Source of the DNA: Rhizobiaceae bacterium
GTDB lineage: Bacteria; Pseudomonadota; Alphaproteobacteria; Rhizobiales; Rhizobiaceae
Length of the DNA: 64,000 nucleotides
Reading direction: 5' to 3'
Assembly (NCBI GenBank): GCA_014238155.1
Contig: JABABQ010000063.1
Coordinates: 62,001-126,000, forward strand
Under the pieces are notes generated by a model. It was not told where the DNA came from, did no database searches, and saw only the letters and a program-made list of their open reading frames with translations. Positions 3,011 to 7,672 of this stretch are shown here, piece after piece; positions within the stretch are counted from its first letter, which is position 1, and each line of letters opens with the position of its first letter. The position numbers and the translations under genes were made by a program.

Positions 3011-3030
3011 ATTTATGGATTGAGGTGTTT

Positions 3031-3642
3031 ATGGCCGCACAAACCGCACAACACCGCAGCCGTGGCCGCCCTCGCCGCCGCCCTCGCCGTAATGGCTGGG
3101 GAGGGCCGGGGATCACGTTGGTGGGATTTGCTGCACTGACGGCGATTATTGTGTGGTTGGATGGCACCGGCGGCGGCAGTACGGCACTGTCTGGCCCGGC
3201 CAAAGTGGTTGACGGCGACAGTCTGGAAATTCGCGGCAACCGGGTTCGTCTGTTGGGCATAGATGCACCGGAACTGACGCAATTATGCCAACGCGATGCT
3301 ACAAGTTGGCCGTGCGGACGGGACTCGCGTTCTGCGTTGCGACAACTTGTTGGTAATTTCGAAGTTCAGTGCCAATCCCATGGTCAGGACCGATATCAAC
3401 GCCTGCTGGCTACCTGTGTTGTCAATGGTGTTGAAATCAACGCTCGTCTGGTCGAATTGGGATGGGCGACAGATTTTGGTGGCTATTCAAGTGAAGAAGG
3501 GCTGGCGCGTCGCAACAGGGTCGGAATATGGGCCGGTCAATTTGAAGCGCCCGAGGAATGGCGCAGGGCCAATCGGTCGCAATCAGACGCGACACCTGTT
3601 ATCGTCCATAGTTGGTGGAAGCGTCTGTGGGCCAGGTTTTAG
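3031..3642 (+). CDS. membrane-anchored thermonuclease (SNase-like) family protein
   Basis: The protein carries an N-terminal basic tract rich in Arg (about 20 residues), one transmembrane segment (ITLVGFAALTAIIVWL) and then a staphylococcal-nuclease-like domain. Recognisable elements are the VVDGDSL start, RLLGIDAPE with its acidic metal-site residues, and a C-terminal block (INARLVELGWA) that matches the usual SNase helix. The domain would sit outside the cytoplasm. ATG at 3031 was chosen over GTG 3025 because GAGGTG at 3022-3027 serves as its ribosome-binding site. It is a phosphodiesterase by family; the substrate is not known. Confidence 0.8.
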   Translation: MAAQTAQHRSRGRPRRRPRRNGWGGPGITLVGFAALTAIIVWLDGTGGGSTALSGPAKVVDGDSLEIRGNRVRLLGIDAPELTQLCQRDATSWPCGRDSRSALRQLVGNFEVQCQSHGQDRYQRLLATCVVNGVEINARLVELGWATDFGGYSSEEGLARRNRVGIWAGQFEAPEEWRRANRSQSDATPVIVHSWWKRLWARF

Positions 3643-5062: not shown

Positions 5063-5530
5063 ATGGATCGCATCGATAAACGCATACTCACGTTGCTGCA
5101 ACAAGACGCTACCACGCCAGTTGCAGAGCTTGGCAAAAAGGTTGGTCTGTCGACCACTCCCTGCTGGCGACGTATCCAAAAGCTTGAGGAGGATGGCGTA
5201 ATTACCAAACGGGTGGCGGTTCTTGATCCGGCGTCGGTTAATGCCAAGGTGACGGTATTCGTTTCAATCCGCACCAATAGCCACAACGCGGAATGGCTGA
5301 AGCGGTTTTCGGAAGTTACCAGCGATTTTCCGGAAGTGGTGGAAATGTATCGTATGAGCGGTGAAGTGGATTATCTGCTGAGGGTCGTCGTGCCGGATAT
5401 TCATGCTTACGATGCATTTTATCAGCGACTTATCAGCAAGGTGGATATCTCCGATGTGAGTTCTTCCTTTGCCATGGAACAGCTGAAATATACGACTCAG
5501 CTCCCACTGGACTATTTACTGGATAACTAG
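5063..5530 (+). CDS. Lrp/AsnC-family transcriptional regulator
   Basis: The 155-residue protein has the classic layout: an N-terminal winged helix-turn-helix (residues 2-60, with ILTLLQQDATTPVAELGKKVGLS), a hinge, and a C-terminal RAM ligand-binding domain (FPEVVEMYRMSGEVDYLLRVVVPD). Family members bind amino acids and form octamers. The target is unknown, but it lies tail-to-tail (10 bases) with the phosphagen kinase gene. That makes an amino-acid-responsive link possible but unproven. The 107-base gap upstream has no clear terminator; Lrp proteins often regulate themselves from such a gap. Confidence 0.9.
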   Translation: MDRIDKRILTLLQQDATTPVAELGKKVGLSTTPCWRRIQKLEEDGVITKRVAVLDPASVNAKVTVFVSIRTNSHNAEWLKRFSEVTSDFPEVVEMYRMSGEVDYLLRVVVPDIHAYDAFYQRLISKVDISDVSSSFAMEQLKYTTQLPLDYLLDN

Positions 5531-5540
5531 AACGCCCTCC

Positions 5541-6641
5541 CTAATCCGAAGCCAAACGCCTCTCAGCTTCAATCAACTGGCCAATTCCCTCATAGAGGCG
5601 AGAGACAATCTCGCCTTCGGTGATGCACAGACGCGCCCGCGGAGATACATCCACTGTACCATCCGCACCAATCGGCGTGTGTTCACCACCCATTCCCCGA
5701 ATTCCAAGGCCAAGGGGCGCAGCGATTTCCTTGACCCGGTCGACCGAACCACCAGCTGTAAGATGGGGCAGGTTCAGGTGTATTGAGGCGCGCATGCCGG
5801 TGCCCAGATTTGTCGGGCAGGTGGTGACTGTGCCGAAATCGTTGGATCGAGCGAACGGACTGTCTGCGCTGCGTTCTATGATCTGCAGCGCTGAATGAAG
5901 CTGATCGAGCACCAGTTTGAGTTTAGTGCCCTTCTTCATACACATAATTCGCAGGTGGTCCTCTTCGCCAACCCAGACTATAAAAGAGTGATCGCGGGTA
6001 AAATAGCAACCGCGTCCATGGGGCCAGTCGCCGGCGATACCGGCAGAAATCAAATAGGGGTCAGCATCCATAGCCTTGAAGATCACGTGGTCGGCGACTA
6101 GCTTTTCATACTCTGGTTTGGTGAGCTGATTTGGATGACCCGGTGTGAGAGATACATAGGTCCCGGCCAACTCAGGATTTGATTGAAGTCGTTCAAAAAC
6201 AGCAGCCATGCGCGTTTCCAGACTTGTGCGATCTTGCAGCGTCATTGCCGAGGTCAGAGGTAAATCAGCAAAATTGCGCCCTACACGAATTCGAAGGGAA
6301 AGCGCCGGCAGACCAAATTTCGTGATATCCAGCATATCCCCTTGGGGAACTGTCCAGTCACTGACATGATGACTTTGGTCATCAATTCCGTGATATCTAG
6401 ATATCGCTTTAGCAAAGAACGGTCGCAATACTTCATAGTCGTCGACCAGACAGGCATAACAGCCCATTTCGCTGTCAGGATTGTCGAGACCGGACCGCAT
6501 GCAGTCCAGCAACCGTTGCTGAAGGCCAGAATCCAGGGAGCCAAAATATTCTGGATCGAAACATTGCACTGCAATATTGGCAGGGTGGCTGGTTTTCAAA
6601 AGGGCAATTTTTTCAACTATCGGGTTCAACTGGTCACGCAA
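5541..6641 (-). CDS. phosphagen (arginine-type) kinase
   Basis: The 366-residue protein is a complete ATP:guanido phosphotransferase, the family of arginine and creatine kinases. The N-terminal helical domain keeps SGLDNPDSEMGCYA and ends in YHG. The catalytic domain keeps SLRIRVGR (nucleotide-binding arginines R117, R119), GEEDHLRI (E226/E227, R231), the reactive-cysteine loop TTCPTNLGTGMR (C275, R284) and IRGMGGEHT (R315, E320). The Glu in GGEHT is the arginine-kinase form; creatine kinases have Val there. The likely reaction is reversible phosphorylation of arginine or another guanidino compound as an ATP buffer. Full length separates it from the shorter protein-arginine kinase McsB. The family is scattered in bacteria, so horizontal origin is likely. 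Confidence 0.9.
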   Translation of the reverse strand: MRDQLNPIVEKIALLKTSHPANIAVQCFDPEYFGSLDSGLQQRLLDCMRSGLDNPDSEMGCYACLVDDYEVLRPFFAKAISRYHGIDDQSHHVSDWTVPQGDMLDITKFGLPALSLRIRVGRNFADLPLTSAMTLQDRTSLETRMAAVFERLQSNPELAGTYVSLTPGHPNQLTKPEYEKLVADHVIFKAMDADPYLISAGIAGDWPHGRGCYFTRDHSFIVWVGEEDHLRIMCMKKGTKLKLVLDQLHSALQIIERSADSPFARSNDFGTVTTCPTNLGTGMRASIHLNLPHLTAGGSVDRVKEIAAPLGLGIRGMGGEHTPIGADGTVDVSPRARLCITEGEIVSRLYEGIGQLIEAERRLASD

Positions 6642-6706: not shown

Positions 6707-6734
6707 AAAAGGCCGGATCCTGGGACCCGGCCTT
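6707..6734 (-). terminator. Rho-independent terminator of the repeat-protein gene
   Basis: Read on the minus strand, AAGGCCGG and CCGGCCTT form an 8-bp GC-rich stem around a 10-base loop, followed directly by a run of T (TTTT). It lies 27 bases beyond the stop codon of the ten-repeat protein gene, in the right orientation. Confidence 0.75.
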
Positions 6735-6760: not shown

Positions 6761-7672
6761 TTAACAGCCGCCTGCAGGTGCGCTGACGCGGATCCAGTCA
6801 GTTCTTCCGTGATTCACCAACACCTTCTCCTTAACCCACTTGTATTTTGCCGGGCTGCGATGAACAATCTTTTGAGCGTGCTGGATCAGAACCTTTTCCT
6901 TGACCCATTTGAAGCGGGCCGGGTGCACAACCTTCTTGCGGCTGCCATGGCGGACCAGAACTGTTTCTTCAACGTGCTTGTATTTTGCCGGGTGCACAAC
7001 CTTGCGGGTCTTGGCTGCGCGCCACAGAACCTTTTCATCAACATAGCTGTATTGGGCTGGAATCTTGCTATAGGACGTCCGTGCATGTCGCACCAGTTTG
7101 CGATGAGCAACGTTCTTGTAAGTGGCAGGATATTTTACCTTGCAGTGAACCGGCTTGCCCCATTTGTCATGTTTGACCGTCCAACCGATACGTTCGGGCG
7201 ATACCATAACCGTTTTGTGGACAGTTTTGTATTTTGCCGGAGTGGTATGAGCAATGCGCTGGCCCTTTGACACCAAAACCTTGCGGGTACGAATTTTATA
7301 TTTTGCCGGTGTTTCATGATAACTCACCTGTTGTGGATGAACCAGGACACGCCGCACACGGGTTTTGTATTTCGCTGGAGTCTCATGATACGACACCCGT
7401 TGCGGGCGTATCTGAACTTTACGTTTTTGAACCGAATAACGGGCAGGAATGTGCTCGACCTGTTTTGACGCATGGTGGACGAGTACCTTGCGTTTAACCC
7501 ACTTGTATTGTGCTGGCTGGTGAACCTTTCTGTAGCACGCAACGGGCTTAGCAGGGCTGTGATAGCTTTTTTGGGTTTCCCAAGCCTGCGCTGAACCAGC
7601 AGCGAGTGTGGCGAGCGCCATCATAGCCGCGCCACCAAAGATAATTCTGTGTAACTTTGTCATTTTGTCCAA
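6761..7672 (-). CDS. secreted basic protein with ten 23-residue repeats
   Basis: The 303-residue product starts with a signal peptide (residues 1-30, ending SAQA) and then consists almost wholly of repeats starting Pro-Ala-x-Tyr/Phe. The prolines fall at 53, 76, 99, 122, 145, 182, 205, 228, 251 and 274. This is exact 23-residue spacing except for one 14-residue insertion after residue 145. A typical unit is PA(K)Y(K)xVxxKVLVxHxxxxVxH. The protein ends PAGGC. It is very rich in Lys, Arg and His and has only three Cys, all after the signal sequence. Similar Tyr-Lys-Thr-Val repeats occur in some bacterial OmpA-type envelope proteins, but no OmpA domain is present here. The function is unknown; a beta-rich periplasmic or surface protein that binds polyanions is a guess. 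A terminator follows. Confidence 0.85.
   Translation of the reverse strand: MDKMTKLHRIIFGGAAMMALATLAAGSAQAWETQKSYHSPAKPVACYRKVHQPAQYKWVKRKVLVHHASKQVEHIPARYSVQKRKVQIRPQRVSYHETPAKYKTRVRRVLVHPQQVSYHETPAKYKIRTRKVLVSKGQRIAHTTPAKYKTVHKTVMVSPERIGWTVKHDKWGKPVHCKVKYPATYKNVAHRKLVRHARTSYSKIPAQYSYVDEKVLWRAAKTRKVVHPAKYKHVEETVLVRHGSRKKVVHPARFKWVKEKVLIQHAQKIVHRSPAKYKWVKEKVLVNHGRTDWIRVSAPAGGC

Follow-up and report, generated by a model that had tools for sequence, protein, structure and literature searches.

Teaching usually presents phosphagen stores as a trait of animals and some protists, and the question raised by the present locus is whether a rhizobia-related bacterium keeps such a store as well. The locus lies within a stretch of 64,000 nucleotides, termed the window, from contig JABABQ010000063.1 of the Rhizobiaceae bacterium assembly GCA_014238155.1 (positions 62,001 to 126,000, forward strand). 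A first-pass annotation had described there an alphaproteobacterial phosphagen kinase that is complete and of the arginine type; the domains, the residues and the tree support this description. Most likely the gene encodes a working L-arginine kinase whose phosphoarginine would refill ATP; the enzyme belongs to a proteobacterial branch whose closest relative of solved structure is a ciliate enzyme, and its gene would have entered the site once and been kept there by selection.

Arginine kinases have already been listed in proteobacteria, PE36 and Sulfurovum among them, in a review (PMC6429109) whose table, in the part available, names delta- and epsilonproteobacteria, so the window kinase adds to a known kind. 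The review also presents ancient origin versus transfer from eukaryotes as a debated matter (PMC6429109). The added value of the locus is its ciliate-like affiliation and the history of its site. No publication on an alphaproteobacterial arginine kinase was found in the open literature, which is weak evidence of absence, as most subscription papers lay outside the search. The genus Ahrensia of the same order may figure in such literature; no paper was found that pairs its name with arginine kinase.

Gene and Domain Architecture

The open reading frame runs on the minus strand from a TTG start at 6641 and comprises 366 codons and a stop, and the plus-strand frame across 5541-6641 is interrupted by stops. 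The full-length frame of 366 residues called in the first-pass annotation, which gave no strand, is borne out. We are least sure of the TTG start, which is the first codon following an in-frame stop; no clear Shine-Dalgarno sequence was seen ahead of it by eye, and its position agrees with the N-termini of relatives in an alignment of 22 kinases. The C-terminal catalytic domain PF00217 is matched with 184.2 bits (gathering cut-off 22.4) and the N-terminal domain PF02807 with 34.8 bits (cut-off 25.7, profile positions 26-66 of 67), and both Pfam matches lie far beyond chance. The PF00217 match is unique to this gene in its own assembly (4.8 Mb, 77 contigs, 97.75% complete). Contamination with eukaryotic DNA as the source of the gene is very unlikely because related genomes show the same arrangement.

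Active Site and Substrate Loop

The landmarks singled out at first pass, namely R117, R119, EEDHLR (226-231), C275 in TCPTNLGTGMR and E320 in GGEHT, are all in place. Alignments reveal five phosphate-binding arginines (R117, R119, R231, R284, and R315), the catalytic glutamates E227 and E320, and the active-site cysteine C275; their roles in phosphate and guanidine binding are presumably those of the Limulus enzyme, and the numbers C271 and E314 occur in PDB entry titles. CPTNLGT at 275-281 fits the reactive-cysteine signature of phosphagen kinases (CP, S or T, N, an aliphatic residue, GT). R117, R119, E226, C275, R284, R315, and E320 are invariant in the 22-kinase alignment, while E227 and R231 each vary in one divergent row (L036 and L047).

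The guanidine-specificity loop SGLDNPDSEMGCYA is equal in length to that of Limulus arginine kinase, SGVENLDSGVGIYA. Comparison of NPDSEMGCY with the Limulus NLDSGVGIY reveals conserved D, S, G and Y; Ser57 and Tyr62 are the equivalents of Ser63 and Tyr68, and the equivalent of Gly64 is Glu58. In Paramecium AK3 the loop has Gln at the Glu58 position, and Ser replaces the Tyr common to the window protein and Limulus. From this alignment, which excluded creatine, glycocyamine, and lombricine kinases, the loop appears to favour L-arginine without proving it. A phosphagen kinase for another guanidine, be it taurocyamine, glycocyamine, agmatine or one taken up, would build a store other than phosphoarginine. 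Glu58 in place of Gly is a point for such a substrate, and sequence is in general an imperfect predictor of what a phosphagen kinase acts on. This alternative is nevertheless unlikely, given that loop length, Ser57 and Tyr62 match the Limulus enzyme, that the taurocyamine kinase domain of Schistosoma differs in its loop, and that the best single-stretch match in the PDB is an arginine kinase.

Comparison with Arginine Kinases and McsB

In phmmer, duplicated arginine and taurocyamine kinases lead the PDB totals with 348 and 311 bits, each of them matching twice. Among matches in a single stretch, 7ews ranks first (239 bits), an entry whose title gives it as the AK3 arginine kinase of the ciliate Paramecium tetraurelia; Limulus arginine kinase follows with 188 bits. 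A structure model built from three sequences was poor and was used solely for the folds and entry titles that it retrieves; with it, Foldseek placed 7ews first and VIA-align placed it 16th, after Limulus and others of close Z.

The same superfamily includes McsB, a protein-arginine kinase that marks proteins for degradation, and the first-pass annotation had named a place among McsB-type kinases as one outcome that would speak against it. McsB shares the catalytic domain PF00217 and aligned catalytic residues with the window protein, which matches McsB models in part, with up to 113 bits. All five NCBIfam McsB models nonetheless remain far under cut-off (113 bits against 385, 106.5 against 500 for NF053707, 81 against 471, 78 against 679, and 39.5 against 381), and the solved McsB chains reach just 74-77 bits over the C-terminal part. 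The contrast between the kinds of kinase is milder by end-to-end identity than by bit scores: 40.9% over 320 positions for Paramecium, 38.4% over 307 for Limulus, and 35.6% over 253 for B. subtilis McsB. The window protein has both PF02807 and the substrate loop, which in McsB is unlike and shorter in the alignment. B. subtilis mcsB is flanked by the genes of McsA, CtsR and ClpC, all three absent among the 8 window neighbours scanned (the rest of the genome was not searched). An enzyme of the McsB kind is thus extremely improbable, as the kinase stays apart from that type in tree, models and PDB scores.

Affinity to a Ciliate Enzyme

A 30-row tree unites 7ews with 21 bacterial kinases in a single group (support 97/97). 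Of these bacterial rows, 19 come from the order of the window and two from genomes of family f231, which belongs to another class of the phylum; the review-listed delta- and epsilonproteobacterial sequences are not among the rows. McsB and the animal kinases fall outside this group, as do three divergent kinases of alphaproteobacteria (L036, L047 and that of Candidatus Bandiella). The group has a sequence mark of its own. Residues 164-175 of the window protein, SLTPGHPNQLTK, hold an insertion of five residues (167-171), which follows S-[LI]-T in all 21 grouped bacterial kinases and in 7ews and is absent from the four animal domains compared and from the three divergent rows. The position of 7ews relative to the bacterial rows differs between trees: it is placed within the bacterial group in one (81/86) and at its base in a second, which carries a long-branch warning.

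The likeness to animal arginine kinase claimed earlier holds for the landmarks; as a whole, the protein is nearer to the ciliate enzyme than to the animal enzymes compared. Limulus arginine kinase (PDB 1RL9) has the same catalytic residues, but it lacks the insertion and is outside the bacterial group in both trees. We tentatively suggest that the kinases of the order, those of the two genomes of another class and the ciliate enzyme may represent one old phosphagen lineage, apart from the kinases without insertion of Bandiella and genome G899; bacteria and ciliates might have exchanged the gene, in either direction, and phosphoarginine could be a standing energy store in scattered Hyphomicrobiales.

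The divergent kinases are of some interest in themselves. The kinase of Candidatus Bandiella woodruffii, which is found with the ciliate Euplotes and was sampled from a Euplotes culture, is plasmid-borne (L051, 3827-4924, plus strand), is annotated as a hypothetical protein, and adjoins transposase genes. Genome G654 holds a second, divergent phosphagen kinase beside one of the insertion type (L036, 3384-4598, minus strand); its EED motif reads EGD, and it may therefore be inactive or altered in function. The divergent kinase of G899, an alphaproteobacterium with a small genome (1.3 Mb, 100% complete; L047, 7980-9128, minus strand), carries Thr in place of the EEDHLR arginine, and its residue at the position of H185 is Gly. 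We also note two short adjacent pieces of the C-terminal kinase domain in genome G1118 (L026 and L027, contig C37, 46028-46260; 30.6 and 21.9 bits), which are perhaps a broken second copy of the kinase.

Distribution Among Genomes

The distribution was assessed by counting genomes with PF00217 over cut-off in samples of the genus, family, order, class, and phylum, each of which includes the window's own genome. Within the genus, 5 of the 15 genomes have the domain; the family sample yields 5 of 297, the order sample 11 of 397 (9 of 142 genera), the class sample 2 of 385, where the second is the divergent L047 type, and the phylum sample 4 of 398. One genus in another family of the order has the kinase in all three genomes examined, and family f231 in 2 of 74. 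The gene is scattered and, within these samples, commoner in the order than around it. The earlier statement that phosphagen kinases occur only sporadically in bacteria holds as regards the scatter, although in the order the gene is thinly spread rather than confined to single cases.

Carriage by phages or plasmids was considered and rejected. None of 9 phage records has 80% query coverage, and a scan of viral contigs gave no relative among 94 pattern matches. Among 21 plasmid records, one covers at least 80% of the query (Candidatus Bandiella, 34.1% identity); the remaining 20 include 17 whose annotation is protein arginine kinase.

History of the Site in the Genus

A run of genes for a histidine kinase, the product of window 3025-3642, a glutathione S-transferase, a uracil-DNA glycosylase and an Lrp regulator is conserved in the majority of the genus genomes examined. 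In four of the 15 (G000, G002, G003, and G013), the phosphagen kinase flanks this Lrp gene on its 3' side. Nine other sites that were fetched are without the kinase and show no remnant at E up to 0.1 in tblastn with seven kinase queries, the site of G011 spanning only 2.7 kb on the relevant side. The carriers differ in detail: in G003 a beta-lactamase-family gene stands between Lrp and kinase, and G013 has a transposase pair on the far side. The G003 kinase is split by a contig end: C145, which also carries a repeat-rich gene discussed below, ends with the first part of the kinase, and C53 begins with the remainder.

A tree built on four neighbouring proteins of 13 genomes groups the four carriers as a single clade (90/88; 92% of 200 bootstrap trees), and one change on it accounts for the presence of the kinase at the site. 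The identities of the carrier kinases to that of the window (86.9% in G002, 66.8% over 247 residues in G003, and 53.6% in G013) fall within the ranges of the neighbouring proteins. The tree of the kinase itself neither shows nor rejects a single clade of the four (approximately unbiased test, p 0.42). The simplest account is that the gene entered the site once, in an ancestor of the four sampled species, and would have been retained by selection since; single entry stays conditional because a count of changes cannot separate gain from loss. G001 has a divergent kinase (43.8%) at another location, which indicates at least one further gain or move within the genus.

Comparison of G000 with G002 gave a nonsynonymous divergence (dN) of 0.073 and a synonymous divergence (dS) of 0.91; with dN/dS of ~0.08, the kinase is under purifying selection in this pair, the one compared. 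The value bears on the alternative that the gene was recently captured or is decaying, with no role in the bacterium, as might be read from its patchy distribution in genus and family and from the kinase-free sites devoid of remnants. In addition to the low ratio, the open frame has been retained at the same site in G013 at 53% identity, and guanine plus cytosine make up 52.1% of the gene against 51.6% of the window, which leaves a gene of this kind very improbable.

Neighbouring Genes and Transcription

The features of the locus are summarized in Table 1. The tail-to-tail arrangement with an Lrp gene reported at first pass is confirmed, the two stops being 10 bases apart, and the view that the kinase sits alone, outside an arginine cluster, is upheld as far as 8 neighbours and the hairpins in three genomes show: a Pfam scan of 8 window neighbours revealed no arginine-pathway gene. 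The flanks on the contig consist of ordinary bacterial genes, which encode a histidine kinase, a glutathione S-transferase-like protein, members of the uracil-DNA glycosylase and NDUFA12 families, and a methyltransferase; the product of 3025-3642 resembles thermonuclease by eye. A Cytochrome P460-family protein is encoded at 618-1310 on the plus strand (42.2 bits, cut-off 27). A link of the kinase to Lrp was rejected, as the Lrp orthologues (76-100% identity) are far more widespread in the genus than the kinase at this site.

Table 1. Coordinates of the kinase gene, its segments and adjacent features in the window.
Feature	Position	Strand	Basis
Phosphagen (arginine-type) kinase, 366 aa	5541..6641	-	PF00217 and PF02807 over cut-off; arginine kinases as best PDB relatives; catalytic residues
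Guanidine-specificity loop, residues 51-64, length as in Limulus arginine kinase	6450..6491	-	Alignment; coordinates computed from start 6641
Segment with five-residue insertion, residues 164-175	6117..6152	-	Alignment; coordinates computed from minus-strand start
Lrp/AsnC-family regulator, tail-to-tail neighbour	5063..5530	+	Pfam; orthologue in 13/15 genus genomes, with or without kinase
Terminator-like hairpin, 11 pairs, T-containing tail, between upstream gene and kinase	6709..6734	-	Hairpin scan
Repeat-rich 303-aa protein, upstream of kinase	6761..7672	-	Adjoins kinase in G000, G002, G003; ~0.54 Mb away in G013

PAKYK-like repeats are numerous in the protein encoded upstream, and its N-terminus looks signal-like by eye; the protein matches no Pfam family over cut-off, and homologues at E up to 1e-10 occur in 10 of the 15 genus genomes. 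Its adjacency to the kinase is kept in the closest kin. A functional link between the two is unlikely because hairpins intervene in three genomes (G000, G002, and G003) and because the genes are far apart in G013. An 11-pair hairpin of near-identical sequence is found in the same gap in G002, and other hairpins in that of G003. The scan of the region gave 3 hairpins against 3.3 expected from shuffles, so the argument rests on place and recurrence; the tabulated hairpin has the longest stem of the three and is located in the gap. No sigma-70-like site was found in the upstream gap of G000, G002 or G003. The kinase is probably transcribed alone, since a terminator-like hairpin separates it from the upstream gene.

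Comparison of 22 stretches revealed no gene that recurs adjoining the kinase across different families, and a conserved neighbourhood across families is not upheld. A few isolated homologues do reappear farther from the kinase, and a 346-aa gene that adjoins the kinase in L040 has relatives 7-8 kb off in L042 and L045.

Proposed Function

The proposed function builds on the family, the intact catalytic set, the loop length of an arginine kinase, purifying selection in one pair, and the common site. Most likely the protein is a real L-arginine kinase that buffers ATP, a substrate and a role that we infer from these features. The enzyme would transfer the terminal phosphate of ATP reversibly to the guanidino group of free L-arginine, and phosphoarginine would constitute a store that replenishes ATP as demand rises. 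An arginine kinase kept in place across rhizobia-related species would offer a workable case for the role of a phosphagen in bacteria, and its branch with a ciliate enzyme a case for asking whether ciliates and bacteria exchanged the gene.
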